From assembly GCA_030426665.1 (NCBI GenBank), contig JAUHYD010000022.1, positions 1 to 64,000 of the forward strand: DNA of 64,000 nucleotides, given 5' to 3'. The translations under genes and the position numbers were made by a program. Of this stretch, positions 1 to 15,570 are shown piece by piece. Source of the DNA: Bacteroidia bacterium. Lineage in GTDB: Bacteria > Bacteroidota > Bacteroidia > Chitinophagales > Chitinophagaceae. The stretch's first letter is position 1, and every line of letters begins with the position of its first letter. The notes beneath the pieces are model-generated. The model did not search any database. It was not told the origin of the DNA and saw only the letters and a program-made list of their open reading frames with translations.

Positions 1-3000
1 AACTACTCCACGTACCCCCGGATATTGAATGACTTAACGACGTCGTACTTCCGTTACACACCTCTCCTGTACCCGTAATCGCAGAGGTAGGTCCACTCAC
101 TGTAACCTCAAGTGTCGTATAACAGCCTGTAGACAACGTATACGTAATTGTCGTCACACCAATACTTACTCCCGTAATTGCAGCACCAGAATAGATAGAT
201 ATCGATGCCACTGAAGGATCACTACTACTCCAGGTACCACTACCAGGTGCACCACCAAGATAGTGTACAGGACCTATACATATCGATGATGGTCCGGCGA
301 TTATTGAAGGCCCCGACTGCACATGCACATTTTTTGTTACATAACAACTACCACTTAATGTATAACTGATAGTCACGTATCCATCACTTACCCCTGTAAC
401 AACGCCACTGGCGTCCACCGTTGCAACGGTAGCATTATCAGTACTCCAAACGCCTCCCGACACAGTATTTCCGAACGCTGTAGGTACTCCCACACACAAT
501 TCAGTAGAACCGATAATTGCTGGCAAACCGACAATTATCGTGTCCGTATAGGTAGTACCCAATACTGTGTAGCTGATGATAGAAGTACCATTTACAAGTC
601 CTGAAACAATACCTGACGTCGACCCAACTGTCGCTACAGTCGTGTTGCTACTCGCCCACGTACCGCCGGAAGGGGTTCCGCTAAGCGAAGTTGTCGCTCC
701 GGGACAAACTTGCAAAGACCCTGATATAACAGAACTTCCGGAAACTGAAACCGAGATACCAAAAGTGGCCGTGTCTGCACCACAACTATTTGACAAAATA
801 TATGATATAGTAACGGTACCGGAAGCCACCGCAGAAACCAGCCCTGAAGCAGAACCTACAGAGGCAACAAAACTATTTGACGAAGACCAAACACCGCCGC
901 TTACAGAGTTAGTAAAGGTAGAAGAAGTTCCGGTCAGCATCGTAGGACTACCTATTATCGGTCCTACAACAGGCACTGCATCTACAGTAACAATTATCGA
1001 AGTACTACACCCCGAAACAGAATATGAAATCAATGATGTCCCCGCTAGCAAACCCGAAACATCACCCGAAGTAGCACCGATTGTAGCCACTGAAGTTGAA
1101 CCACTTGTCCAGGCACCGCCGGATACAGTGTTAGTAAGGGTAGTCATATCTCCTTCACATACAGAAGCAGTGCCACCAATAGCACTGGGCGAGCTATTCA
1201 CAGTCACGATTGCCGTTACGTAACAGCCTCCCGACTGCATATAAGTTATTTCAGATGTTCCCGCTGCAACACCCGTTACCAATCCTGAGCTTGGTGCAAC
1301 AGTCGCAACAGAAGACCCGGAATTACTCCAGGTACCGCCGCTCGGGCTAGTACTCAAAGTAGTAGTAGCTCCACTACAAACTGTTAACGTTCCGGATATA
1401 GCACTAGGCGTAGTACTTACCGTAACTACCACAGTTGCATGACAACCGGCAAGAGAATATGATATGGTCGGCGTACCCGCAGCAACACCACTCACAACTC
1501 CTGTGGTGCTAACAGTAGCAAGCGACAAGTTACTGCTGGACCAGGTACCACCTGAAGTCGCATTAGTAAGCGTTGTTACATCCCCTGTACAAACCGCCGG
1601 CGTCCCACCAATGGAAGCAGGACTGGCAGTAACGCTAACTTCAGCCGTCACAAAACAACCCGACGAAACTGTATAGGTTATTGAGCTTGTACCGACACCC
1701 ACTCCCGAAACAATTCCTGAAGTAGATCCGATAGTGGCAACACTTGTACTACTACTGCTCCACGTACCACCACCCGATGCATTGCTCAGCGTGGTTGAAG
1801 TACCATCGCAAATGGAAAGAGTGCCGGTTATGGGAGACAAGACACTATACACAGTAACTACTGTTGTAGTTCTACAGCCGGACGGCAACGTGTACGATAT
1901 CATTGCAGTCCCTGCGCTTGCACCGGAAACAATGCCTGATGTAGAACCTACTGTTGCTACAGACGTAGCACTGCTTTCCCATGTACCTCCGCTGACTGAA
2001 TTACTTAAGGTTGTCGTAAATCCGGAACAAACAGATGTAGTGCCACCTATGGCAGAAGGTGATTCATTTACCGTTAACGTAGCAGAAGAATAACAACCGG
2101 TTGATAATGTATAACTGATTGTAGTTGTCCCGTTCAAAACTCCACTGACAACACCTGTCGTTGCCACAGTGGCTATAGAAGTAGCCGAACTACTCCACGT
2201 TCCACCGCTTGGCGTACTGGAAAGAGTTGTCGTATTACCTTCGCACACCAAAGCAGTTCCGGTTATCGCTGAAGGGTTATCATTTACCGTCACAACTACA
2301 GAAACCGAACAGCCGGACAAGTCATAAGTAATGGTCGCAGTACCTGTGGAGACACCGGATACGACACCCAAAGAAGTAACCGTAGCCACGGAACCGTTTA
2401 AACTACCCCAGGAACCACCGCTCGTAGCATTGGTCAATGTGGCTTCCCCGCCAACACATACCGATGCCGTGCCACCAATGGCTGCTGGCGATGCATTTAC
2501 CGCAATTTCCTTCGTCGCGAAACATCCTGTTGACAATGTATAACTGATCGTAGACGTTCCGGCAGTAGCACCGGTAACATCGCCTGTAGATATTACTGTT
2601 GCCACGGAAGGGCTGGAGCTACTCCACGAACCGCCGCTCGTCGCATCAGCAAGCGTGATTGTACTACCGGCACAAACCGAGCTCGCACCCGTTATTGCGG
2701 CAGGGTTACCATTCACGGTTACTATCTTTGTTGCCGCACAACCCGACGCCGTATACGTAATGGTGGCAGTACCTGCTGACACACCGGACACAACGCCTGA
2801 CACAACAGATGCAATGGACCCGGACGACGTACTCCATGTACCTCCGCTGGTAGAATTGGTCAATGTCGTGGTCCCCCCTACACATACCGATGCTGTGCCA
2901 CCTATGGCTGCAGGACCATTAACAGTTACGGTAGCTGTTCCTACACATCCGCCGGATACAGTATAAGAAATAACAGCAGTTCCTGCCGCAACCCCAGTCA

Positions 3001-4819
3001 CAACACCCGTACCGGAAACTACAGTTGCTACAGATGTAGCCCCGCTCGTCCATGTTCCGCCGGAAGTTCCGCTTGACAAAGTCGTATTCGCACCAACACA
3101 TAAAGACAACGTGCCGGTTACCGTTGGTGTAGTACAGCTTTCCATCGCTACATGTGCCCACCAGGTATCCCACTTGTTAGCAACAGTAGAACTTGCCTCT
3201 TGTATCGTCCAGAAGTCAAGGTCGTTTGTAGGATCAACTGCTGTGGCTGAATAATCTCCCCACCTGTTTTTTGACCCGCCATAAGTTTTATAATAAGTAT
3301 TTTGACCTTCCCTGAAAACATAGGGTGTTCCTATCGCGTCAGTAGCGTCAGTGTGCATTCGCAATGCATAAGCACAGCTTGGGTGAGTGCTTGCAGACAT
3401 CACAGAGAACCCAATTAACGCATCGTCATCACTATTTACTGCAATAGACGGGTAGGCGTAAAATTTCCCCGTAGAGGCATCATCAATTCTCCCGAACTGA
3501 ATCGGTGTACCAAAGGAATCCACCTGCCACCATTGAATAGCACTTCTCGTTGGATTAGAGCCCGACGCATAGGGAAGAAACACAGTATGCGCAAACCAGA
3601 TTTTGTTGTTCCTGTATATAACCTGCGTAATACGGTTATCACCTGTGTTTATTAGATTCGAGATACCGGTCTGTGGTCCGAAATCTCCAAACGAAGTTCC
3701 CGAAACCGGATAAGGCTGATACCACCAGGCGGCATCGCCTACAGGGTACCCTACTACCGACATAGTCTCAGAACCAACATCTCCGTTCATTTTCCACATC
3801 TTTACCATACTTGCTCCACCGTTCCACGACTCAGCAAAAAACATAGTCCCCATTGAATTATCATAGGTTAATGTCGGACATAAGTTTGATTCGCCTGATT
3901 GAAAAAACTCTGTGAATGGTGCGCTTCCACCGCCATATATCGTTGCTTTATCAAACGCAAAAGTTTTCCATCCCAATGAACTTCCGCTACTGTTCGGAAA
4001 CAAATAACCAGACACAACTATCCATTTATTATTAAACCCTACATTAGGAAAATCCAGCCAGTGCGTATCTGCACTATACGCGTCTATCTTAAACTCATAC
4101 CAGGTTCCGGTAGGGTCGTTAGTCGCAGATACCGCAATAAGAACAGAGGAAGATGCCGTACGTGCCCCGCAAACCGCAACAATAATCCACCTGTGTTCGT
4201 AAGGGTCATAATGAACTCTCGGATCAAAAGTCCCGCTCGATACCACTGGCGACCAAAACGAATTCAGCGATACCTGAGATATACTCGTTCCATCACGACG
4301 TTGAATCGTAACCGCCGAATTAACGGTTGTCACACAATACGTCGAATCCACAGCCCCATGGGTATCAGGAGGAATAGTCGTATTGTTATCAAGCGTCGAC
4401 TGAAAAGCTGTATCCGGAGCAGGTGATGCCGAAGACATTGGCGTAGGTGGCGCAATTGGCCCTAACGAACCATGTCCGCCGCCTTCCCTAAAACGTAGCA
4501 GCGTCGAATCAAAATACTCTAACGGATATAGGTCTTCTTCCTCTTCCCCTTCTTCCTCTTTCATTCTTTCCAGAAAAGGTTCCGGGTGCATACTGGAATA
4601 AGCCGCTGCTTCGCTAAAATTTAGTTCTCCTCTGGCTACTTCGTGGCCTGTACTCCTTACCTGAGCGTTAGCCACGGACACACCTGCGATAACTAATACC
4701 AAAAAGGCATATAGTGCTCTTTTAATTTGCATACGAACTTTGGATTTTACAACGGGAACAACTTGAATTGCTTTTATTCCACGAGGATTTGACGATTCTG
4801 TTGGGATGGGCAATTTCAT
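1..4819 (-). CDS. Giant secreted Ig-repeat protein, N-terminal part (3' end beyond window)
   Basis: The minus strand is open from an ATG at 4819 to the window edge, giving 1,606 codons without a stop, so this is the 5' part of a larger gene. An internal ATG at 4732 begins a classical signal peptide (MQIKRALYAFLVLVIAG, cleavage after ANA) and may be the true start; the upstream ATG adds 29 residues. After an acidic stretch near residue 90 comes a ~430-residue region with the motif PPDTHGAVDSTY and FDPRVHYDPYEHRW, which I read as a propeller-like secreted domain. From about residue 555 the protein becomes roughly fifteen BIG2-like Ig repeats of about 70 residues, each with SGGTWSS, SVATV, GVVSGVxAGTATISYT and one or two Cys. 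Such proteins are usually surface adhesins or T9SS cargo in Bacteroidota, but the C-terminus that would show this is outside the window. Confidence 0.85.
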   Translation of the reverse strand, partial: MKLPIPTESSNPRGIKAIQVVPVVKSKVRMQIKRALYAFLVLVIAGVSVANAQVRSTGHEVARGELNFSEAAAYSSMHPEPFLERMKEEEGEEEEDLYPLEYFDSTLLRFREGGGHGSLGPIAPPTPMSSASPAPDTAFQSTLDNNTTIPPDTHGAVDSTYCVTTVNSAVTIQRRDGTSISQVSLNSFWSPVVSSGTFDPRVHYDPYEHRWIIVAVCGARTASSSVLIAVSATNDPTGTWYEFKIDAYSADTHWLDFPNVGFNNKWIVVSGYLFPNSSGSSLGWKTFAFDKATIYGGGSAPFTEFFQSGESNLCPTLTYDNSMGTMFFAESWNGGASMVKMWKMNGDVGSETMSVVGYPVGDAAWWYQPYPVSGTSFGDFGPQTGISNLINTGDNRITQVIYRNNKIWFAHTVFLPYASGSNPTRSAIQWWQVDSFGTPIQFGRIDDASTGKFYAYPSIAVNSDDDALIGFSVMSASTHPSCAYALRMHTDATDAIGTPYVFREGQNTYYKTYGGSKNRWGDYSATAVDPTNDLDFWTIQEASSTVANKWDTWWAHVAMESCTTPTVTGTLSLCVGANTTLSSGTSGGTWTSGATSVATVVSGTGVVTGVAAGTAVISYTVSGGCVGTATVTVNGPAAIGGTASVCVGGTTTLTNSTSGGTWSTSSGSIASVVSGVVSGVSAGTATITYTASGCAATKIVTVNGNPAAITGASSVCAGSTITLADATSGGSWSSSSPSVATVISTGDVTGATAGTSTISYTLSTGCFATKEIAVNASPAAIGGTASVCVGGEATLTNATSGGSWGSLNGSVATVTSLGVVSGVSTGTATITYDLSGCSVSVVVTVNDNPSAITGTALVCEGNTTTLSSTPSGGTWSSSATSIATVATTGVVSGVLNGTTTISYTLSTGCYSSATLTVNESPSAIGGTTSVCSGFTTTLSNSVSGGTWESSATSVATVGSTSGIVSGASAGTAMISYTLPSGCRTTTVVTVYSVLSPITGTLSICDGTSTTLSNASGGGTWSSSSTSVATIGSTSGIVSGVGVGTSSITYTVSSGCFVTAEVSVTASPASIGGTPAVCTGDVTTLTNATSGGTWSSSNLSLATVSTTGVVSGVAAGTPTISYSLAGCHATVVVTVSTTPSAISGTLTVCSGATTTLSTSPSGGTWSNSGSSVATVAPSSGLVTGVAAGTSEITYMQSGGCYVTAIVTVNSSPSAIGGTASVCEGDMTTLTNTVSGGAWTSGSTSVATIGATSGDVSGLLAGTSLISYSVSGCSTSIIVTVDAVPVVGPIIGSPTMLTGTSSTFTNSVSGGVWSSSNSFVASVGSASGLVSAVASGTVTISYILSNSCGADTATFGISVSVSGSSVISGSLQVCPGATTSLSGTPSGGTWASSNTTVATVGSTSGIVSGLVNGTSIISYTVLGTTYTDTIIVGLPAIIGSTELCVGVPTAFGNTVSGGVWSTDNATVATVDASGVVTGVSDGYVTISYTLSGSCYVTKNVHVQSGPSIIAGPSSICIGPVHYLGGAPGSGTWSSSDPSVASISIYSGAAITGVSIGVTTITYTLSTGCYTTLEVTVSGPTSAITGTGEVCNGSTTSLSHSISGGTWSS

Positions 4820-4934: not shown

Positions 4935-5297
4935 TGTTGCTAACTAACCGATTCTCAGCCCAAAGCGTTACAGACTTGTGAAAATGGCGATATTTTCAGA
5001 CTTGTTCATTAAGGTGAATCAACCTTATAATTATTCAGAAATTTATTTGCGCACCATTCGGATCAATAGCTAGGTCTCGGTTTATTTGGGTCTTAAGTAG
5101 CTAATGGCAACGGGAGAAGTAACAAGCCCTATATTCAATCTCGTTTCTGTTTTCTGGTGTTTTTTAGACGTCCAATTATCTGATTATTAGTTTCAAAAAC
5201 AGCCGCAACTTTCATTTCACCTATATCAATATAAGAACGCCAAACAAGAGAAAGTTTGTTCCCCTAACCGAATACTACATGACTGAACATAACTACC
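4935..5297. other. Intergenic region without a recognised gene
   Basis: The AT-rich gap between the divergent giant gene and the lipoprotein gene holds no convincing ORF or RNA. A short direct repeat CAGACTTGT occurs twice around 4970-5004, and a weak 6-bp hairpin (TAAGGT/ACCTTA) lies at 5010-5027. Neither could be tied to a function. Confidence 0.5.
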
Positions 5298-5305
5298 TAT
5301 ATTTG
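5298..5305 (+). promoter_or_regulatory. Possible -7 element of lipoprotein gene
   Basis: TATATTTG matches the Bacteroidota -7 consensus TAnnTTTG. No good TTG is found 17-23 bases upstream. If it is used, transcription would begin about 10-15 bases before the ATG at 5327, which excludes the longer reading frame starting at 5279. Confidence 0.3.
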
Positions 5306-5326
5306 TGGCTCGTGAAGGATGCTTTT

Positions 5327-5737
5327 ATGACACAAAAAATACTTTTCTGCTCGATCAGTTTGTTGCTAACCAGCATGCTTTTCAACAACTGCACTAAGGA
5401 AGAGCCCGGAACCCCGATTTATCCTGAAAACTGTGCTAACTACCTGGTAGGCACCTATTCAGGAACTGATTATTGTTCCGCGTCTGGGCAGACACCCTAC
5501 AGTTGCAGTATTATTGCAAGCACACCGGTAAACATTACTATTAGCCACTTAGGTGGTGTCACCGTAAATGCGATACTCGACTGTGAGAAAAACACGCTGA
5601 CTATTCCTGCCCAAACCTTTGCAGGAAACTTTACTATCACAGGTTCAGGAACCTATACAGCAAACAGAATCGTTATTAACTGGAGTGGTGTATCGTCCGG
5701 AATACCAATGAACTGCAACACTACGTACACTCGTTAG
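5327..5737 (+). CDS. Small secreted lipoprotein, unknown function
   Basis: The product is a 136-residue protein with a lipoprotein signal peptide: MTQK, a hydrophobic core, then a lipobox-like LFNNC, so it is probably lipid-anchored in the envelope. I chose the ATG at 5327 over 5279 because it places the signal sequence at the N-terminus and follows a -7-like element. The mature part has four further Cys pairs or singles (ENCANY, DYCSASG, YSCSI, LDCEK, MNCNT) and beta-strand-like alternation ending in TYTR. It resembles the many short Bacteroidota lipoproteins with a lipocalin-like or Ig-like fold, but I recognise no specific family. It converges on the usher-like gene with a shared hairpin between them. 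Codon use is like its neighbours. Confidence 0.7.
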   Translation: MTQKILFCSISLLLTSMLFNNCTKEEPGTPIYPENCANYLVGTYSGTDYCSASGQTPYSCSIIASTPVNITISHLGGVTVNAILDCEKNTLTIPAQTFAGNFTITGSGTYTANRIVINWSGVSSGIPMNCNTTYTR

Positions 5738-5769: not shown

Positions 5770-8406
5770 TTATTTCTCTTCCTTTGACTCAGGAATCAAG
5801 ACAAAGTCAATCCAATCTGCCATGTCACCATCTACCGTTTCATGTATTGTCACCGGAAACTTACGTTTAGCTAGCGTCATATGTATCTTTGAAATCTGTG
5901 CACTATCCACTGTTACAATATATTTACCTGGACGTAGACCAAGATAACTAAAGTACCCATCAGATTCCGAAACCGTACGAGCAACCAGATTCTTCATCGT
6001 AGAATCAAAAATGCAAACAATTACCTGACCCAACCCTTCCGGTTCTTTTTTCCCATCGCGAAGAACTCCAACAGAACCCGACACTTCTCCTGCTACTGCA
6101 ACCGGCACTGATATGAGCACAAAGTTGTTGGGGCTTGCTACTATATTGAGTTTCTTATTCCTTATTTTCCATGATATATTATCAAACCCACTTTCCTTCA
6201 GTTCCACAAAGTACTTGTTATAGGGCTCCAGGTCAAGGATGCGAATCAGGCTGTCCTTTTCATCGTAAACTACTCTGCCTCCGTTTACTCTTGCTTTAAG
6301 CCCCCAAACAATTGGCTCTCCGGCATCTTGCAAACCATTGCTATTTACATCAAGGAACGGCTTGAAGACTATACCTCCCTTACCTACATTGGTACGATTA
6401 TTGGCACTTGCATAGCCCGACTTATGATCAAACACCATACTTCCGGACGCGGCAGCTATTCGGCTGTACGTCTTGTTACTACCGGCAAGCAATGATACAG
6501 CCGCCCGTGCAAATGACAAGTCATATCTCATACCCAACAAAAAATTTCTATTCTTAACGTTGTAGTATTCCTGATATGCGAAACTTGCATAGCCCTTTTT
6601 GAAAATGCGCTTCTCTATCGTCAACTTTGAGAATATCGGAATGTTTGTTTTATGGTCGTATTGTAGTTGCGCTGTCAACATCGACTTTGCGGGCAGCGGT
6701 ACTGTTGCAGAAGCAACACTATACAAGTACGGAACAGTACTTCTGGCAAAAGACATATAAGAACTCAAATTGACCCCCACTCTACCAACAAAACCGGTAA
6801 ACGACAACTCTGTATTCGTATATTGAGTATTGGGCAAAATAATATTATTGACCGTTAGCCTTGAAAACATCGAAAACTTCTTTGAATGAAATGGCATTGA
6901 TATTATTGCCTTACGGTCCTCGAGGTAATTGTAAAATATGGCAGTTTGCCCTTTCTTGTACTTTACATAATCTAACTCATATTGAAAACCTGATCGGTAA
7001 CGTGAGCTCAATATTCCGCGAAACCGAACGTTGTGTGTATACTCGCCGGTAAATAGCATACGTGGTGCTAGTCTCACCGAGCTGTTGACGTACGGCATAA
7101 AACTACCGGAAGTAACAGACGACAAATATTCCGTACCACCACCTACAGTGATGTTTCTGGAAATGCCATATTTCATACTTGCCCGCGTAAACTTACTATC
7201 CTTTCCATCTTCAACAATCCCGGCGTTTATAGAATACTCAAACTCATTCTTGGGTAAAAAATTAAACGGAATATTGATGTACTGTTGACTGGTTCGCACC
7301 TCACCGTAGGGGCCGTAAAATTTCAATTTTACTATCGTAAACCCATACACAAGTGGCACTTCAAAGGAGTAAAAGCCACCAGCATCCGCCTTCTTATAGT
7401 CAACAAGCACATCGTTTACATATAGCTCTATTGTCCATCCTGGCTCAGTTGTATTAGTCAATGTATATGATCCGTATGACTTTCGATAAAGTGTAGATGC
7501 GTTTGTTACCTGCACGCCTACTACCGGTGCATATAAAGTGGCAGTAGACTGTGTAAATATTTTGCCTGCCGCAACTTGCCTTACAGCCTTAGCATCGTTA
7601 TCAACAAAGCGCCATTGATAGAACTGTAGCTTTTCATTGAACCCCTGCTGACTGTAATAATTAAAAGATGTATTGAGTTCGCCGCCTGCAAGTTCAGAGC
7701 CAAGGCCAAGGTTTACCGATGTCTGATTACCGCCCGGAGATTGGTCTGACGTCATTAACGCCCAATCTGCTGTGCCAAAATGAAAAAATGGATGCTGCCG
7801 CTCAACAACAGTATCCACATCGTTCTCCCCATTTAGCTTCCGCACGTTTTTACGCATCAGCGCCTGCCGCTCTTCCTTGATAGCTGGCAACTCCTCGTTA
7901 GAACTCAATGTAACTACAAGCCTTCTAAACTGAAACGCCCCCTCAAACCCAAAAATTGATTTTATGTACTTTAGGTTGAGGTACAAATCAGTTTCAGTAG
8001 GTATGAATCCATCATCTTTAAACTTTGTTTCTACGCCCTTATAAACTATCCTGTTATTCGGAACATCAATCAGGTACACATTTTGCTCATTAATAAAAAA
8101 GCCAAATATTGAATCACGATTGTCGTTTGGAATATTTCTGATTTTTATAAAATCGAACACAGACGTAATAGACAGAAAAATCTCGTCATCCCGGTAAGCG
8201 GCTGGTATCTCCTTACTTCCGATGCCTTTCACTTCTAATTTTACAGAAATTTCATCAACGAAATTATCTTCATCTGTACTGCTTTGCGCATACCCTGTAA
8301 ATATGGATGAAAGTGACAGAATAACAATAATTGCAAATCTCCGCAGTGACGAAAAAATTATGTAAGGATACAAGCGGCGGTATAAGTAAACAAAAAATAC
8401 TGTCAT
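5770..8406 (-). CDS. Usher-like outer-membrane protein (chaperone-usher type)
   Basis: This 878-residue protein has an N-terminal signal sequence (hydrophobic stretch about residues 18-40, ending GYAQ). The length matches fimbrial ushers, which are outer-membrane pores that assemble pilins handed over by a periplasmic chaperone. Around residues 290-380 it carries usher-like features: an AAGKIFTQSTATLYAPVVGV strand region, then a plug-like segment with GWTIELYVNDVLVDYKK, GGFYSFEVPL and KLKFYGPYGEV. Alternating beta-strands that suit a barrel follow. The C-terminus has an FLDVNSNGLQDAGEP loop, as in SdrD/B-like domains, and a carboxypeptidase-regulatory-like domain (SDGYFSYLGLRPGKYIVTV). It is the last gene of a four-gene operon with a PapD-like chaperone and two DUF4402 subunits, which strongly supports the call. 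The similarity is distant, so a general outer-membrane export pore is the main alternative. Confidence 0.68.
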   Translation of the reverse strand: MTVFFVYLYRRLYPYIIFSSLRRFAIIVILSLSSIFTGYAQSSTDEDNFVDEISVKLEVKGIGSKEIPAAYRDDEIFLSITSVFDFIKIRNIPNDNRDSIFGFFINEQNVYLIDVPNNRIVYKGVETKFKDDGFIPTETDLYLNLKYIKSIFGFEGAFQFRRLVVTLSSNEELPAIKEERQALMRKNVRKLNGENDVDTVVERQHPFFHFGTADWALMTSDQSPGGNQTSVNLGLGSELAGGELNTSFNYYSQQGFNEKLQFYQWRFVDNDAKAVRQVAAGKIFTQSTATLYAPVVGVQVTNASTLYRKSYGSYTLTNTTEPGWTIELYVNDVLVDYKKADAGGFYSFEVPLVYGFTIVKLKFYGPYGEVRTSQQYINIPFNFLPKNEFEYSINAGIVEDGKDSKFTRASMKYGISRNITVGGGTEYLSSVTSGSFMPYVNSSVRLAPRMLFTGEYTHNVRFRGILSSRYRSGFQYELDYVKYKKGQTAIFYNYLEDRKAIISMPFHSKKFSMFSRLTVNNIILPNTQYTNTELSFTGFVGRVGVNLSSYMSFARSTVPYLYSVASATVPLPAKSMLTAQLQYDHKTNIPIFSKLTIEKRIFKKGYASFAYQEYYNVKNRNFLLGMRYDLSFARAAVSLLAGSNKTYSRIAAASGSMVFDHKSGYASANNRTNVGKGGIVFKPFLDVNSNGLQDAGEPIVWGLKARVNGGRVVYDEKDSLIRILDLEPYNKYFVELKESGFDNISWKIRNKKLNIVASPNNFVLISVPVAVAGEVSGSVGVLRDGKKEPEGLGQVIVCIFDSTMKNLVARTVSESDGYFSYLGLRPGKYIVTVDSAQISKIHMTLAKRKFPVTIHETVDGDMADWIDFVLIPESKEEK

Positions 8407-8438
8407 TCTATCTATTCAAATTTATACAACCTTGCCAA

Positions 8439-8993
8439 TTATTCCTGTATAAATGTAACATAAAATGAACCATTATATGCCCCGGAAGGGTTTGCAACCG
8501 GACTGCCCACATTCAACACACCGCCAATATTCACAGTATTGTACGCAGGCGGATTCGCAGACGAAATAAAAGGCGAGCTGGGGTACGAACTACCAACATG
8601 CATAGACATAAACCCACCGGCAGAGCCTGTCAGGTTTGCATCCGGACCATTAAGAATAGAAATCAAAGTACCGGGTGCTGCAACTATTTCAAAACTTGCG
8701 GGACCGTACACATATCCCCCATCCGCTAAAACTATCGAACCTGTTGCCGTCCTGACCCCTGAACCCGAGACACTAACCGTACCACCGGAAGAGCTTTGAT
8801 AAAATGCACCGAACCTAAGCCCTTGCGCTGGATTGAAAGACACTGATATCGGTCGTGGTGGTGGCTGCTGAGCGACAGCACTTACACAAACAAAAAGCAA
8901 CCCCACAAACGCTACTACCTGAGTATACATTTTTGTGGTTTGCATTTTCGCTTTATTCAGGATATTCATTAAATTAAAATTTTCGTTACCCAC
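8439..8993 (-). CDS. DUF4402-like secreted subunit, second copy
   Basis: The product is 184 residues at most; ATGs at codons 9 and 17 give better-placed signal peptides (MQTTKMYTQVVAFVGLL... ending AVAQ). The mature part is a small glycine- and serine-rich beta protein. It follows the DUF4402 pattern: LRFGAFY, then GTVSVSGSGVRTATGSIVL, ASFEIVAAPGT, NIGGVLNVG and a closing YNGSFYVTF strand. Here DUF4402 is linked to fibre-like subunits by its gene neighbourhood. This copy is more divergent than the one at the operon head and lacks the usual VNYN ending, so it may be a tip or adaptor subunit rather than the main one. It lies 188 bases after the chaperone and 32 bases before the usher-like gene, on the same strand. 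Confidence 0.65.
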   Translation of the reverse strand: MGNENFNLMNILNKAKMQTTKMYTQVVAFVGLLFVCVSAVAQQPPPRPISVSFNPAQGLRFGAFYQSSSGGTVSVSGSGVRTATGSIVLADGGYVYGPASFEIVAAPGTLISILNGPDANLTGSAGGFMSMHVGSSYPSSPFISSANPPAYNTVNIGGVLNVGSPVANPSGAYNGSFYVTFIQE

Positions 8994-9181
8994 CTTTCAA
9001 TCTCAAAATCTGCACACTTAGTTTTGTCCCGATAACCCAACAAAGCAAGTCTGAAAACCTCTTCAAATCCGACCTTTCTCAAATGCAAAATTAAGTAAAA
9101 ACAATAAAGACTGCTGACCAATTGCGGCACTTAATGATCCCTTTACAAGCGAATAACAGACAGTTTGAAATATATTTGTTA

Positions 9182-10054
9182 TCACTTAGAGCTAAGGTCG
9201 AGATAGGCTTCAACTTCCTTTTCAGTATCATCTGCATTTTGCAGCGTATAAACTAAATGCAATCTTCCGGAAGAATAATCTACACCCTTATCTGTATCCA
9301 TTTCAGTACTGAACATTCTAAGCGTGTTCGGGGTATACACGCCCAAACCTTTCACAAGTTTCACCTCAACAGACTTTCCCTTTTTATCGATATGAAAAAC
9401 TCTCAAAGTCCCGTATACCGACATCTTCCCGGTTCTGTTAAATGATACATTTATCACAGGCTTCCCTTCTGCCGTGGCATCGACAGACAAATCAGAAAGT
9501 GTCACGTCTCCATCATTTTCACCTTTCCGGATTATTACAGGAATAGTGATACCGAATATCGGTTTCAGCTGAATGGCAATTCCTGCGGTATCCTCCCCTG
9601 CTTTTTCCTCTCCCAATGGCTTTTCCTGAGGAACAGCACGAAAATAAAGGTGTGACCGATACTCACCCTCTGTCATTTGGCTTGTCCGAATCAGCTGAAT
9701 TTTCACAACCTGCGATTCATTTGGAGCTAGTGTTACCTTTCTGGGAAAGTACCTGATAAAATGATCTGCAAATAATTGACCGGAATCAGGAACGGTTATC
9801 TCTTCAAAAGCACCGTTCTCGCGCATACGCAGATTCTTTACAGAAACAGCATAAACTGCCGTATCCTTCCCCACATTTGCCAAACTTACTTCCTGAGACC
9901 GTTTTGTATTTTCAAAAACAATCCGAAGTGGCGATATCAATAAATCACCCTGAGCAGTCGCAGTGCTTGCAACTACTAATAAAATTAGGCACATAGCCGA
10001 AAAGCGCTGAACTACCGGAGTTAACCTTCTGGCAGAACAAAAGAAATTATTCAT
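9182..10054 (-). CDS. PapD/FimC-like periplasmic pilus chaperone
   Basis: The product is about 290 residues from the ATG at 10054, with a signal peptide ending ATAQ. A longer start at 10111 would overlap the upstream stop as TAATG, so translational coupling is possible. The mature N-terminus (LLISPLRIVFENTKRSQEV followed by LANVGKDTAVYAVSV) is the first strand pattern of PapD-like chaperones. FPRKVTLAPNESQVVKIQL matches the conserved segment before the G1 strand used for donor-strand complementation of pilins. A second Ig-like domain follows (KPVINVSFNRTGKMSVYGTLRVF). Such chaperones bind pilin subunits in the periplasm and hand them to the usher. The gene sits between two DUF4402 genes and upstream of the usher-like gene. 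It is longer than typical 230-residue PapD proteins, mainly through the signal region and inter-domain loops. Confidence 0.8.
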   Translation of the reverse strand: MNNFFCSARRLTPVVQRFSAMCLILLVVASTATAQGDLLISPLRIVFENTKRSQEVSLANVGKDTAVYAVSVKNLRMRENGAFEEITVPDSGQLFADHFIRYFPRKVTLAPNESQVVKIQLIRTSQMTEGEYRSHLYFRAVPQEKPLGEEKAGEDTAGIAIQLKPIFGITIPVIIRKGENDGDVTLSDLSVDATAEGKPVINVSFNRTGKMSVYGTLRVFHIDKKGKSVEVKLVKGLGVYTPNTLRMFSTEMDTDKGVDYSSGRLHLVYTLQNADDTEKEVEAYLDLSSK

Positions 10055-10110
10055 AAATATTTGATTGAAAGCTTTCAAAGGATAATACTGAAGCCCAAAG
10101 ATACAATTCA

Positions 10111-10635
10111 TTAATTATAATTCACTGTAACAGGCACAGCAGATGCATTGACATATAAGCCTGCCGGCTGTCCGGCGGAAATGCTCAATGAACCGCCAAC
10201 GGCAAGCGTACAACTTCCTGACGTACTTAAAGTACCGGTAACCGCCGGGCTACTTGTAAAAGAATTGATTGAAAGCACAGAACTTCCGGGACCGTTAACC
10301 GTAGCAGAACCCGGCAAAGTAATAGAAAATGTATATGAAGGCATACCTGCAATCGAAAAACCGGCGGCCGACACTGTCCCTACTGTAGCCGGCAAAGTAA
10401 CTCCGGCCCCTAACGTACTCCGTGTACCTGAAGGCGACAACACCAATACCCCACCTGTAGACGCTGAAACCGCAGCATTTCCAAAGTTCATGTCCACTGT
10501 CTTAGCCATACTTATAGGGACCACAACACCTGCCGATACTGATGCAATAGCGGTTTGCTGCGCAAAAGTCGCAGTAAACCCTCCGGAGGCAATTGAAAAA
10601 ATAAATACGAATATCCAACGCATTTGTCGTAGCAT
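10111..10635 (-). CDS. DUF4402 secreted subunit (putative major fibre subunit)
   Basis: The protein has about 174 residues from the ATG at 10635; an ATG at 10680 gives a longer N-terminus that is unlikely. A signal peptide (MRWIFVFIFSIASGG... ending TFAQ) precedes a typical DUF4402 domain. It opens with a VVVPISMAKTVDMNFGN strand, then GGVLVLSPSGTRSTLG, AAGFSIAGMPSYTFSITLP, a central SSPAVTGTLS segment, and closes with AVGGSLSISAGQPAGLYV and VPVTVNYN. The conserved opening and closing strands are consistent with an incomplete Ig-like pilin fold completed by a partner strand; that is inference. The gene heads the operon and its stop touches the longer chaperone start, which fits a secreted subunit served by that chaperone. 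Confidence 0.8.
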   Translation of the reverse strand: MLRQMRWIFVFIFSIASGGFTATFAQQTAIASVSAGVVVPISMAKTVDMNFGNAAVSASTGGVLVLSPSGTRSTLGAGVTLPATVGTVSAAGFSIAGMPSYTFSITLPGSATVNGPGSSVLSINSFTSSPAVTGTLSTSGSCTLAVGGSLSISAGQPAGLYVNASAVPVTVNYN

Positions 10636-10731
10636 TTCGGTCGATTGAAATGTTGCAGGTGCAAGTACTAAACTTTGCATCTACTGCAAATTGCCATTCG
10701 TTTATTCATTAACAAACCGACAGCAATACAA

Positions 10732-10770
10732 CAAATATAGGATAAAATAGTTAATTAGTTAACGGTTAAC
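10732..10770 (-). promoter_or_regulatory. Promoter/operator region of the chaperone-usher operon
   Basis: On the minus strand TATATTTG (10732-10739) matches the Bacteroidota -7 element about 100 bases before the DUF4402 start. No TTG occurs at the expected -33 distance. Instead three GTTAA repeats occur on the plus strand at 10750, 10758 and 10765, spaced 8 and 7 bases apart and including palindromic GTTAAC. A weak -33 replaced by a repeat cluster suggests an activator site, but this is inference from motif position. Confidence 0.35.
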
Positions 10771-10798: not shown

Positions 10799-11194
10799 CT
10801 AACTAGCCTTTTTTGATGCTATAAGACTAACAATCTGACTGATTTTTTCTAAATCACTATCACCTTTTTTGATAAAGTCATAGGCGCCTAAATTCATCGC
10901 ATCTATCGCCACCTGCGCATCATCATGTCCGGAAATCACCAACAACGTAATATCCGGATTATATTGTTTAACCAATTGCAATACATCTAGCCCGTTGAAT
11001 GGCTTCATGTCGTAATCAAGGAATATTATGTCCGGACACATGTCCAGCTTTTTTATGCAATCATACCCGTTGTCAAAAAGTATATTATCTTTATATCCAA
11101 GATTTATCAGGTGCTGCCGATACAACATTCGACTGAAGTAGTCATCGTCAACTATAAAAAATTTCAATTTATTTACGTGCTCCACTTTTCTCAT
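10799..11194 (-). CDS. Stand-alone response-regulator receiver domain protein
   Basis: The protein has about 131 residues from the ATG at 11194 (an upstream ATG at 11224 adds ten poor residues). It is a single CheY-like receiver with no output domain. The acidic pocket is the DDD after FFIV (residues 16-18), the phosphoacceptor is D60 in FLDYD, the switch Ser is in LVISGHDD, and the conserved Lys is in DFIKKG. It can therefore accept a phosphoryl group from a kinase or Hpt domain and signal by protein contact, or act as a phosphate sink. It is transcribed divergently from the NtrC-type regulator and hybrid kinase, 140 bases away, and in the same direction as the chaperone-usher operon, whose first ATG lies about 165 bases beyond its stop. 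This suggests, without proof, that it belongs to one of those systems. Confidence 0.85.
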   Translation of the reverse strand: MRKVEHVNKLKFFIVDDDYFSRMLYRQHLINLGYKDNILFDNGYDCIKKLDMCPDIIFLDYDMKPFNGLDVLQLVKQYNPDITLLVISGHDDAQVAIDAMNLGAYDFIKKGDSDLEKISQIVSLIASKKAS

Positions 11195-11334
11195 TTTACT
11201 ATATAGTATCGAACAACGTGCCAAAATCGTAAATAGCTGATTTTCAATAGACTACATTTCAATCATTTGCCGACAGTTCCAAAAAGTAGATAATAATTCC
11301 AAAATACGGAAAAAATTAATAGTATATTCGCCTT

Positions 11335-12690
11335 ATGGAACAGTTCCGAATATTTATTGTCGAAGACGACCCTTGGTACGGTGAAATTCTCGAATATCAT
11401 CTATCGCTGAATCCCGACCATGAAATCTACCGATATACCTCCGGCAAAGATTGTCTTGCAAACCTGGGGAAGAAGCCCGGGCTTATAAGCATAGATTATT
11501 CCCTTCCTGATATAAATGGGGTTGAACTACTGAAAAAAATTAAACAGCAGGTCCCTGACACGCCTGTTGTTGTTATTAGTGGCCAGGAAGATATCAGTAC
11601 CGCAGTAGACCTCTTAAAACAAGGTGCTTCTGACTATTTTATTAAAGATGACAATACCAAAGAACTGCTTTGGAATGCTATCATAAGGATCAAGGAGCAC
11701 CAGTCCCTGAAAAAAGAAGTTGAAGAACTTAAAGAAGAACTAGGACATAAATATGACTTCAGCAAAGCCATTAAAGGTAATAGTCGGGCAATGGTGCGCA
11801 TTTTCTCTTTATTGGAAAAAGCAGCGAAAACAAACATAAATGTTTCAGTAACTGGTGAAACAGGTACAGGAAAGGAAGTAATAGCAAAAGCTATTCATTA
11901 TAACTCAGAGAGAAAAAAGAAGCCTTTTGTTGCGGTCAATATGGCTGCTATCCCAAGAGAGTTGATTGAAAGTGAATTGTTCGGACACGAAAAGGGTGCA
12001 TTTACCGGAGCGGCAGCGCGTAAATCCGGTAAGTTTGAAGAAGCCAACAAAGGCACTATTTTTCTTGACGAAATCGCAGAGTTAGACCTGAGTCTTCAGA
12101 GCAAAATTCTACGTGTATTGCAGGAGCGGGAATTAATAAGGGTTGGTGGAAACGAAAAAGTCAGCCTGGATGTGCGCTTAATCGTTGCGACCCACAAAAA
12201 TCTCCTCGAGGAAGTCAAAAAGGGAACTTTCCGTGAAGATCTCTTCTACAGAATTATGGGATTGCCTATCGAGTTGCCGCCGCTCCGAGAACGCGGCGAC
12301 GACATTTTGCTGCTCGCAAAATTCTTCCTCGACGAATTCTGTAAAAGCAATAAACTTAAAGCTATTGGCATTTCGCCTGAGGCAAAAGAGAAGTTTATGA
12401 AATACAATTACCCCGGAAATGTACGCGAACTAAAAGCCGTGATTGACTTGTCCGCTGTTATGTGCGACGGAGAAAGCATCAAGGAAGAGGACATATACTT
12501 TGCCAGCGCCTCATCCGACGACTTCTTATCTGCGTCTGAAAAAACAATGAAGGAATATACATCAGACATTATCAGCCACTTCTTAAAGAAATACAACAAC
12601 AATGTCGTGAAAGTTGCAGACAAGTTGGAAATAGGAAAGTCTACCATTTACAAAATGATTCAAAACAACGAAATCACGCTGCATCAATAG
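11335..12690 (+). CDS. NtrC-family sigma-54-dependent response regulator
   Basis: This 451-residue protein has three parts. A receiver (about 1-120) has EDD at 10-12, phosphoacceptor D54, S82 and K104. A short coiled linker (120-140) follows. A sigma-54 AAA+ domain (about 143-375) has Walker A GETGTGKE (174-181), the sigma-54 contact loop GAFTGA (221-226), Walker B GTIFLDE (240-246) and the arginine-finger region. The C-terminal Fis-type helix-turn-helix includes VVKVADKLEIGKSTIYKMI. Phosphorylation should drive oligomerisation and ATP-dependent opening of sigma-54 promoters. The hybrid kinase starts 9 bases after the stop, so the two almost certainly form a pair. No clear GG-N10-GC sigma-54 promoter was seen upstream of the neighbouring genes. 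A TATATTCG site ends just 4 bases before the ATG, so a leaderless message is possible. Confidence 0.93.
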   Translation: MEQFRIFIVEDDPWYGEILEYHLSLNPDHEIYRYTSGKDCLANLGKKPGLISIDYSLPDINGVELLKKIKQQVPDTPVVVISGQEDISTAVDLLKQGASDYFIKDDNTKELLWNAIIRIKEHQSLKKEVEELKEELGHKYDFSKAIKGNSRAMVRIFSLLEKAAKTNINVSVTGETGTGKEVIAKAIHYNSERKKKPFVAVNMAAIPRELIESELFGHEKGAFTGAAARKSGKFEEANKGTIFLDEIAELDLSLQSKILRVLQERELIRVGGNEKVSLDVRLIVATHKNLLEEVKKGTFREDLFYRIMGLPIELPPLRERGDDILLLAKFFLDEFCKSNKLKAIGISPEAKEKFMKYNYPGNVRELKAVIDLSAVMCDGESIKEEDIYFASASSDDFLSASEKTMKEYTSDIISHFLKKYNNNVVKVADKLEIGKSTIYKMIQNNEITLHQ

Positions 12691-12699
12691 TATCTTTTT

Positions 12700-15570
12700 A
12701 TGACAACAAGGGATTTACAAGAAGAACTTGACAAAGAAAGAGCACTACTTAAATCAGCTCAGGACAGGATAGCGATTCAAAAAAAGGAACTGGAAGGACT
12801 AAAACGGAAAGTGTTGCAACACGGCCGAAAGGGCGAACAATCCGCCGACAGTTCCAACATCCTTATGGGCTTGATTTCTAGTCTTGAACAAGGGGTACTA
12901 ATCGTAGACGACCAGCAAAATATAGTTAATGTAAATAATAACTTTTGTGAAAAATTTGGGGTTCAGGATAGCCCGGAATCCTTGATAGGAACCGACTGCA
13001 AGTCAATCATAGACTATATTAACAACTCAATTATTTCTCCTATCCATTATGCAGAAGATGCTTTAGAAATACTTGAAAGCCGCATACCGTCCTTCGATAA
13101 TGAGCTTAAGCTATCGACCGGCTTAGTGTGTAGCTGCGACTACATTCCGATAAAGAACGAAAACAAGTTTGCCGGCTACATTCTGAAGTTTAAGGATATT
13201 ACTCGAAGCAAAACCATTAGCGAAACTTTTGAGACGCAACGAAAATTCTACGAACAAATTCTAAATAATGTACCTGCCGACATAATCGTGTTTGACACCG
13301 AGCAGCGATATCTATATGTCAACCCCATGGCAGTTAGCAATCCGGAACTGCGGAAATGGTTGATAGGAAAATCGCACGAAGAATACGTCGCTCACACCAA
13401 AAAGCCTTTAGAGATCGACAAGGCAAGAAAAAACGCTTTCAATAAAGTGCTGAAAACAAGAGCAAAGCAGGAGTGGGAAGAACACTACGTAAATCCAAAG
13501 GGAGAAACTTTTTATCATTTACGTGTGTTGTATCCTGTCCTTGATAGTAATAATGAAATAGAAATAGTTATCGGGTACGGTGTCAATATCACAGAACGAA
13601 AGAAAATTGAGGAAGAGATTCAGCTAAGCGAAGAAAAGTATCGAGGCATCATTGAAAACATGAACCTTGGCATGATAGAAATTGACACCAACGAAAAAAT
13701 CATTTATGCAAATGACAGATTCTGCAAAATGAGTGGGTATTCTTTAGACGAACTTATTTCTAAAAAAGCAACAGATCTTTTCCTGAATGGATATAGCCTC
13801 AGAAAAACAAAAACTAAACTTCATAAACGAGAATACGGAATAAGTAAAAGTTACGACCTCGCTGTTAAAACAAAAGACGGAGCCGACCGTTGGTGGCTTA
13901 CGAGTGCTACCCCACTGTTTGACGTTCACGACAAATTGAAAGGGACAATAAGCATACACCTTGATATTACCGAACAAAAAAAGCTCGCGGAGCAACTGCG
14001 AATTGCAAAGCAGGAAACCGAACGTTCGTCAAAGTCTAAGGATATCTTCCTTACTAACATGAGCCACGAGATTCGTACACCACTCAACGCTATTATGGGA
14101 CTGGGGAAGTTGCTGAGCAAGAGCAACCTCGATACCAGACAAAAAAATTACCTCAACGGAATTGAAAATGCATCATCAAATCTGTTAAGTATAATTAATG
14201 ATCTGCTCGATATTTCTAAGATAGAAGCCGGAAAGATTTCAATCGAAAATATCAGTTTCAATCTTGAAAATATATTGCAGCAATCTGTAAACATCCTTGA
14301 ACATAATGCTGAAGGGAAAGGACTGATTCTGACACACGAAATCGACAACCGTATCGGACCAGTTCTAATTGGAGACCCTTTCAGGCTCAATCAGGTGTTT
14401 ATGAACATGATGAGCAATGCTATAAAGTTTACAGAGCAAGGCTCTGTGTTGCTTAGAGCTATACTGGAAAAGGAAGAAGATGGCTTTCAGGACGTACTCA
14501 TTACAATAACAGATACAGGCGTTGGAATAAAAGAAGAGTACCTCAAAACCATATTTGACAAGTTCACACAAGAAGACGAAACAGTCGTTAGAAAATTCGG
14601 CGGCACCGGGCTTGGCATGAGCATCACCAAGCAATTGATGGAGCTGATGGGCGGAAGTATCGCCATAGAAAGCAAGAAAAATGTCGGCACTACTGTTTCA
14701 CTTAAATTAAGATTCAAACTTGGCAATGCGAGAGTATTTGAGAAAAAACGCACGATAAAGAATGACACAATAAACATCAAAGGGAAGCGGATACTACTTG
14801 TCGAAGACAACAACCTCAACAGGCTATTGGCCTTTACAATTCTCACTGATTACGGCGCATTAATAACAGAAGCCGAGAACGGACTTGAAGCCGTTGAAAT
14901 TGCTAAAAAAGAACGTTTTGATATCGCCTTGGTTGACATACAAATGCCGGTTATGGATGGCATACAGGCTACAAAAATCATGCGCAAGGAGCTTAAGCTC
15001 ACTATTCCAATTCTTGCATTGACTGCGAATGCAGTGAAAAGCCATGAGCAAAAGTTTCTGGAGGCAGGTATGGACGATATGATTTTAAAACCTTATAATG
15101 AAATCAATCTTGTAAACCCGATTGCAAAATGGCTTGGCATAAAGGGTCAAATTGATATTCCTAGTGAAGACCTGCCAAAGAAGGAAGCAAAACCTGTAGA
15201 AAAAAAGGAAGCTACAAAAAGCAAAGAGAAACTATATGACCTTTCGAAGCTATTGGCTATTTGTAAGGATGACAACGAGTTTATTAGAAAGATGCTAAGC
15301 CTCTTTGTAAATGAAACACCACCCCTGGTAACGAAAATGAAGGAAGGGCTTGCAGCCGGCGACTTTGAAACAGTAAGGTTCTACGCCCATCGAATGAAGC
15401 CTTCAATAACAAACCTCGGTATTAACACCCTGGTGTCGGACATATTGAAAATTGAACTTACAAAAGATGACAATCCCGAACTTGCGGATATGGTTAAAAA
15501 ACTGGATGCCACAATTGAGGAAGTCGTTGACCAAATGATGGCGGAATATCCAAACCTGAAGAAAAATTAA
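12700..15570 (+). CDS. Hybrid sensor histidine kinase with PAS, receiver and Hpt domains
   Basis: The 956-residue protein has no clear membrane segment, so it is probably cytoplasmic. An N-terminal coiled coil (1-45) is followed by about three PAS domains, two closing with ...GVNITERKKIEEEIQ and ...SIHLDITEQKKLAEQ. The HisKA motif NMSHEIRTPLNAIMG carries phospho-acceptor H456. The HATPase domain shows MMSNAIKFTEQG, DTGVGI and GGTGLGMSI. The receiver has LLVEDNNLN and phosphoacceptor D746. A C-terminal Hpt domain has H897 in AHRMKPSI. All four phosphorelay stations are therefore present (H456 to D746 to H897 to an external receiver). The likely final partners are the adjacent NtrC-type regulator and the stand-alone receiver. 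The signal sensed by the PAS domains is unknown. Confidence 0.93.
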   Translation: MTTRDLQEELDKERALLKSAQDRIAIQKKELEGLKRKVLQHGRKGEQSADSSNILMGLISSLEQGVLIVDDQQNIVNVNNNFCEKFGVQDSPESLIGTDCKSIIDYINNSIISPIHYAEDALEILESRIPSFDNELKLSTGLVCSCDYIPIKNENKFAGYILKFKDITRSKTISETFETQRKFYEQILNNVPADIIVFDTEQRYLYVNPMAVSNPELRKWLIGKSHEEYVAHTKKPLEIDKARKNAFNKVLKTRAKQEWEEHYVNPKGETFYHLRVLYPVLDSNNEIEIVIGYGVNITERKKIEEEIQLSEEKYRGIIENMNLGMIEIDTNEKIIYANDRFCKMSGYSLDELISKKATDLFLNGYSLRKTKTKLHKREYGISKSYDLAVKTKDGADRWWLTSATPLFDVHDKLKGTISIHLDITEQKKLAEQLRIAKQETERSSKSKDIFLTNMSHEIRTPLNAIMGLGKLLSKSNLDTRQKNYLNGIENASSNLLSIINDLLDISKIEAGKISIENISFNLENILQQSVNILEHNAEGKGLILTHEIDNRIGPVLIGDPFRLNQVFMNMMSNAIKFTEQGSVLLRAILEKEEDGFQDVLITITDTGVGIKEEYLKTIFDKFTQEDETVVRKFGGTGLGMSITKQLMELMGGSIAIESKKNVGTTVSLKLRFKLGNARVFEKKRTIKNDTINIKGKRILLVEDNNLNRLLAFTILTDYGALITEAENGLEAVEIAKKERFDIALVDIQMPVMDGIQATKIMRKELKLTIPILALTANAVKSHEQKFLEAGMDDMILKPYNEINLVNPIAKWLGIKGQIDIPSEDLPKKEAKPVEKKEATKSKEKLYDLSKLLAICKDDNEFIRKMLSLFVNETPPLVTKMKEGLAAGDFETVRFYAHRMKPSITNLGINTLVSDILKIELTKDDNPELADMVKKLDATIEEVVDQMMAEYPNLKKN

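Follow-up and report, generated by a model that had tools for sequence, protein, structure and literature searches.

A probable divergent chaperone-usher branch with DUF4402 pilins in a Bacteroidota genome, and scattered pilin-like genes under the same promoter design

Do four consecutive genes of a Bacteroidota genome, encoding two DUF4402 proteins, a PapD-like chaperone and a large outer-membrane protein, form a chaperone-usher system, and from which genes would such a system draw its major pilin? The genes lie on the minus strand at 5770-10680 of the window, by which we mean the whole 64,000-nucleotide stretch analysed here (contig JAUHYD010000022.1 of the Chitinophagaceae assembly GCA_030426665.1), and they follow the order subunit, chaperone, subunit, usher, just as an earlier note on this DNA had stated. 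Herein we argue that the locus very likely represents a divergent, largely unannotated chaperone-usher branch that uses DUF4402 pilins and whose operon is co-regulated with dispersed pilin genes. With less assurance, we also favour a wider picture, in which the branch occurs in Bacteroidota and several Proteobacteria, while in one genus about 15 scattered, near-identical pilin genes subject to concerted evolution would respond to one sigma54-type switch together with a co-expressed giant surface protein.

Standard family models do not name the 878-amino-acid protein as an usher. The Pfam scan (cut-offs of 27.1 bits for PF00577, Usher; 23 for PF00345, PapD_N; and 25.2 for PF14352, DUF4402) returned no PF00577 match for it, yielding only weak C-terminal matches to SdrD_B and CarboxypepD_reg, and NCBIfam gave no usher name either. 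Over the 395 Bacteroidota genomes sampled, PF00577 had no match above its cut-off (best 24.3 bits), and its four sub-threshold matches all fell within members of the window usher's own family. A profile of this family, comprising 115 sequences, aligned collinearly with the seven ushers of E. coli K-12 (hhalign: 97.1%, E 7e-11, 534 columns) along columns 130-745 of the FimD alignment, while the controls reached 1.3% (reversed alignment), 1.0% (LptD) and 0.4% (FhuA). Adding four proteobacterial relatives extended it to 97.6% and 627 columns (130-828), so that the C-terminal domains were reached as well. The full set of 115 sequences was required because the 13-sequence genus profile on its own was weak for the usher (7.8%). 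Direct sequence searches of the PDB with the usher, chaperone and DUF4402 profiles returned nothing useful, and the homology thus rests on profile-profile alignment together with fold. The 18 best PDB matches to the usher model were all FimD or PapC (Foldseek E 3e-19 to 5e-8, the next being 7e-6), and VIA-align gave a Z of 16.4 across 382 residues. A barrel unrelated to ushers, such as a carboxypeptidase-regulatory-like or SdrD-like transporter that lies beside a PapD-like chaperone, would fit the silence of PF00577 and the names offered by Pfam and the Prokaryotic Genome Annotation Pipeline (PGAP), which refer just to SdrD_B or carboxypeptidase-regulatory-like C-terminal domains. However, an alignment that covers the plug, the barrel and the C-terminal domains, with decoys that scored far lower, and a list of folds headed by 18 ushers make this explanation extremely improbable. 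Alignment and predicted fold together support the protein as an usher with a plug region, a barrel and C-terminal domains, and the earlier note's assignment, which had been posed against membership of another barrel family, stands.

The chaperone's PF00345 match is barely above the cut-off (23.7 against 23 bits), and its family profile aligned over both domains with ten K-12 chaperones at 95.4% (E 1.8e-8; reversed decoy 3.2%), so that the two-domain PapD-like chaperone claimed previously is supported by both routes. Residue R63 (in SPLRIVF), which is invariant across the genus, aligns with the FimC arginine equivalent to PapD R8.

Subunits A and B are indeed DUF4402 proteins, PF14352 being their sole Pfam family, with no match to Fim/Mfa or to spore coat U (SCPU). 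The AF2 model of subunit A, built from a 98-sequence alignment, had a mean predicted local distance difference test (pLDDT) of 95.8, and its PDB matches were almost all chaperone-usher pilins (the Csu rod subunit, FimF, CfaB, the PapG pilin domain and FimG), with the Csu rod subunit (7zl4) as the best Foldseek match. In VIA-align, residues from approximately 12 to 148 paired with pilin cores, the first dozen residues remaining outside. At the profile level the DUF4402 match to E. coli pilins was only 20% and was confined to the C-terminal 34 columns. The idea that DUF4402 proteins are pilins was part of the original proposal, and the predicted model speaks for it, since its resemblance to chaperone-usher pilins begins near residue 12 and continues to the C-terminus, an N-terminal segment falling outside the matched fold; a pilin function for this domain is accordingly likely. 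Phylum-wide, the N-termini divide by gene position. Subunits encoded ahead of the chaperone (A-type) have about 25 residues before an FG motif, with alternating small and hydrophobic residues (for example QATATANASATIVTPISI), whereas those encoded ahead of the usher (B-type) have 19 and typically carry PPPRP after the first two residues; at least two prolines occur among the first 12 residues in 84% of B-type and 0% of A-type subunits. These patterns suggest that A may be a donor-competent shaft subunit and B a tip subunit that lacks a donor strand.

The earlier note had proposed a survey of the four genes across the phylum, and clusters of this kind do recur there, in favour of a distinct branch. 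The usher family has matches in 86 of the 395 genomes, some of which span the plug or the C-terminal part only, and its 80 named loci include Chitinophaga, Pedobacter and Bacteroidales; close relatives come from metagenome-assembled genomes labelled Taibaiella and Flavipsychrobacter. Chaperone, DUF4402 and usher genes occurred together within the stretch examined in 61 of 112 usher-family loci across Bacteroidota, and a further 43 had a DUF4402 and an usher gene, many of these 43 being truncated where a contig or stretch ends. Conservation of the DUF4402-chaperone-usher order is far above chance. Within the genus, a chaperone was found in 11/11 genomes with an usher and in one further, 59%-complete genome, and among the near-complete genomes DUF4402 was present in all 11 with an usher against 3/14 without (Fisher p 1e-4, a value that serves only as a guide because the genomes share ancestry). 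The branch also extends beyond Bacteroidota: the same cluster lies on plasmids of Polaromonas and Novosphingobium (L306-L308) in the order DUF4402, hypothetical, (DUF4402), chaperone, usher; its ushers hit the family profile with E values from 3e-53 to 1e-96 and are annotated as carboxypeptidase-like or hypothetical. In Polaromonas JS666, the small hypothetical protein encoded between the DUF4402 genes has a pilin-like end (VQVNYN).

The loci also vary in composition. In many of them a large gene sits between the chaperone and subunit B, and the two intact large genes that were scanned (L056:4668-8426 and L059:1550-6358) end in a type IX secretion system (T9SS) type A sorting domain above the cut-off; by this tag, a chaperone-usher operon would here include genes for substrates of another secretion system. 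An additional C-terminal domain is present on several of the family's ushers (L059, L060, L061 and L063-L066), and in a Pseudoalteromonas relative (L309:4158-7346) the extra domain is a SPOR domain above the Pfam cut-off, which would suggest attachment to peptidoglycan.

The genome holds 17 DUF4402 genes, only two of which are in the operon, the other 15 being solitary genes distributed over nine contigs. These 15 encode what is essentially one protein of approximately 174 residues, no more than two residues differing over the 128-residue core compared, at nucleotide identities of 88-97%. Expressed as mean differences between copies within the genome, the protein differs by 0.6% and fourfold-degenerate sites by 20%; in comparisons of this genome with four congeners, the corresponding values are 13-29% and 47-59%. 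The combination of 20% at fourfold sites with 0.6% in protein means that the copies are not fresh duplicates and that the protein is under purifying selection. In the tree, scattered copies cluster by genome (five of the six groups needing a single label change, with weak support in places) and the operon subunit A genes form a separate clade (100/98). The copies therefore appear to have been multiplied or homogenised in each lineage with the protein held constant, and selection on the protein would also be needed, because gene conversion alone would erase the synonymous differences. We considered whether the 15 copies could instead be products of a mobile element or of misassembly and not a multigene pilin family maintained by selection. 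Their scatter would agree with this, as would flanks that are hardly common between species: in comparison with other species, whose flanks spanned about 650 bases, only two loci of G009 matched flanks of this genome (G000). Nevertheless, the contrast between synonymous and protein divergence, the promoter in front of each copy, the terminator-like hairpin after most of them and the lack of any evident transposase among the neighbouring open reading frames (ORFs) read make it very unlikely. The major pilin is probably encoded by these 15 genes, outside the operon, and to our knowledge no other pilus system takes its major subunit from such a number of unlinked and nearly identical genes.

A common promoter design connects the scattered genes with the operon. 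All 15 copies are preceded by a pair of TCC-N8-GGA dyads, spaced by about 20 bases, along with a TTGATTNTCAA/IHF-like site and TTGGCAC-N5-TTGG. The design recurs in four further species, and the copies of G008 keep it. GGCA in the -24 element is invariant in the 17 aligned promoters. Dyads, an IHF-like site and a -24/-12 element form the textbook arrangement of a sigma54 promoter, and the genome encodes RpoN (PF04552). A model trained on the 17 promoters, of which this genome contributed five, scored the 15 copies at 76-94 bits and the operon promoter, which was itself part of the training set, at 65.8 bits (E 1e-17). It also recovered one more site, the seventeenth of the pilin type (40.6 bits, E 1e-9; C40:36500-36610), about 130 bases ahead of a giant ORF of at least 6,500 residues with Ig-like repeats (G000:C40:16700-36366, L304), which runs past the stretch retrieved. 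Nothing else in the genome fell under E 1e-7, the remaining hits being reversed readings of these sites or weak. The promoter motif gave 23 hits, of which seven had no score with the full model and were not counted in the regulon. We propose, from its domains and position, that the NtrC-type activator encoded next to the operon regulates this set.

Several observations weigh against the picture outlined so far. The template-free usher model is poor (pLDDT 57.7), and the N-terminal domain of the usher, which binds the chaperone in FimD, lies outside the FimD alignment, about 130 residues preceding the aligned part. No lysine of the chaperone aligns with the anchor lysine PapD K112. Taken singly, the structural matches of DUF4402 are weak (Foldseek E at least 0.07, VIA Z at most 7.5), and the fold evidence is therefore the make-up of the match list. 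At -12 the copies have GT (TTGGT) instead of the GC of canonical sigma54 promoters, and the operon has TTCGA. Moreover, three congeners that are 97-99% complete (G008, G025 and G032) have no chaperone or usher detectable even with the phylum-wide profiles, and have 19, 8 and 7 DUF4402 matches, respectively, which means that another export route is possible or that the machinery genes were lost or left unassembled. This last observation, with the same promoter design in G008 and the placement of operon subunit A and the scattered copies in distinct clades, fits an alternative in which the operon is a chaperone-usher system with A and B as the components of a short tip or small fibre, and the 15 scattered products are co-regulated surface or matrix proteins that leave by another route. 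We regard this as unlikely, though less so than the other alternatives discussed here, since the scattered copies and the operon have a promoter in common, both the scattered copies and the operon subunit have a donor-like N-terminus, and DUF4402 accompanies the usher in all 11 genomes that have one and is absent from most that do not. We thus retain the reading of the scattered genes as pilins of the chaperone-usher system.

Under that reading, the NtrC-type activator and the neighbouring hybrid kinase (together 11335-15570) would turn on a sigma54-type regulon through the paired TCC-N8-GGA dyads, an IHF-like bend bringing the dyad-bound activator to the -24/-12 element, so that the operon, the 15 scattered major-pilin genes and the giant repeat-rich surface protein would be induced together. 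Subunits would cross the inner membrane by means of their signal peptides and pass to the FimC-like chaperone and then to the usher barrel. Subunit B, which has no donor-type N-terminus, would begin the fibre as its tip, and A and the scattered copies may then polymerise by donor-strand exchange of their alternating small/hydrophobic N-termini.

The surroundings of the operon are summarised in Table 1. Its first gene is most likely that of the receiver-domain protein, upstream of the four genes originally described, and a receiver-domain gene also adjoins the operon in the loci of relatives L056-L058. Orthologues of the activator (86-89% identical) and of the hybrid kinase are likewise adjacent there. 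On the other side, the small probable lipoprotein, for which the Pfam scan gave no match, has a homologue next to the usher in L057 and L058 (53-62% identical). The true start of subunit B is probably a later ATG than the GTG used for its length. Just past the usher, at 2-4819 on the minus strand, is a secreted protein with repeats of the form SGGTWSSS...SVATV...GVVSGV...GTATITY; it has at least 1,606 residues and is cut by the start of the window. The C40 giant and the gene inside the L061 operon have similar repeats.

Table 1 Features of the chaperone-usher locus and its surroundings (window positions).
Feature	Position	Strand	Length, score or basis
Small probable lipoprotein	5279-5737	+	Conserved neighbour of usher
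Divergent outer-membrane usher (supported)	5770-8406	-	878 aa; hhalign and Foldseek
DUF4402 subunit B, immediately ahead of usher	8439-8993	-	184 aa counted from first GTG; PF14352 61.4 bits
PapD/FimC-like periplasmic chaperone	9182-10111	-	309 aa; PF00345 23.7 bits
DUF4402 subunit A	10111-10680	-	189 aa; PF14352 84.5 bits
Lone receiver-domain protein	10799-11194	-	PF00072 67 bits on 141-aa ORF; ATG at 11194
Operon promoter, whole	11208-11311	-	
-24/-12-like element TTGGCACGTTGTTCGAT	11208-11224	-	One mismatch to the motif preceding the 15 scattered genes
AT-rich site at the position of the scattered copies' IHF-like site	11230-11248	-	Alignment of 17 promoters
Proximal dyad, putative upstream activator site	11277-11290	-	Alignment of 17 promoters
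Distal dyad TTCCGTATTTTGGAA, putative upstream activator site	11297-11311	-	Alignment of 17 promoters
NtrC-type sigma54 activator, receiver and AAA+	11335-12690	+	PF00158 234.5 bits; PF00072 69 bits
Hybrid histidine kinase	12700-15570	+	PAS, HisKA, receiver and Hpt domains

Matches to an unannotated usher family in 86 of 395 genomes, for a phylum in which the searchable (open-access) papers yielded no account of chaperone-usher systems, suggest that an entire family of pili has gone unnoticed in Bacteroidota. Searches of the same literature gave no paper on DUF4402, and nothing relevant that links chaperone-usher systems with Chitinophaga or Pedobacter, or PF00577 with Bacteroidetes. As Chitinophaga and Pedobacter are cultured hosts, the system can be tested. 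The divergent branch is nonetheless not its most surprising part; that is the set of co-regulated, scattered and nearly identical pilin genes, which was unforeseen. It raises the questions of whether the identity of their proteins is held by gene dosage or by the need to co-polymerise, and of which signal, sensed by the kinase, demands much pilin at once.

The locus can finally be set against known systems. Archaic chaperone-usher systems are the most widespread, being reported from proteobacteria, Cyanobacteria and Deinococcus-Thermus, with Bacteroidota not listed, and the remaining clades belong to beta- and gamma-proteobacteria (PMC4654587). The type 1 (Fim) and P (Pap) pili of E. coli resemble the present system in having a FimC-like chaperone, a FimD/PapC-like usher, a pilin-like subunit fold and a compact operon. 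Unlike them, the window's usher stays under the PF00577 cut-off, the subunits are DUF4402 proteins, copies of the major subunit lie outside the operon with promoters of their own, and some ushers of the family have an extra C-terminal domain and several relatives' operons a large T9SS-tagged gene. The archaic pili (Csu of Acinetobacter, CupE of Pseudomonas) include the top Foldseek match of the DUF4402 model, the Csu rod subunit, but here the subunits are DUF4402 rather than SCPU. Published work describes the type V pili of Porphyromonas as having neither chaperones nor ushers (PMC5789003). With type V (Fim/Mfa) pili of Bacteroidia the system shares the phylum, and strand-exchange polymerisation has been proposed there too, whereas DUF4402 subunits, a chaperone and an usher set it apart. 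The plasmid clusters of Polaromonas and Novosphingobium, by comparison, have the gene order seen here and ushers that fit the family profile under their carboxypeptidase-like or hypothetical names.

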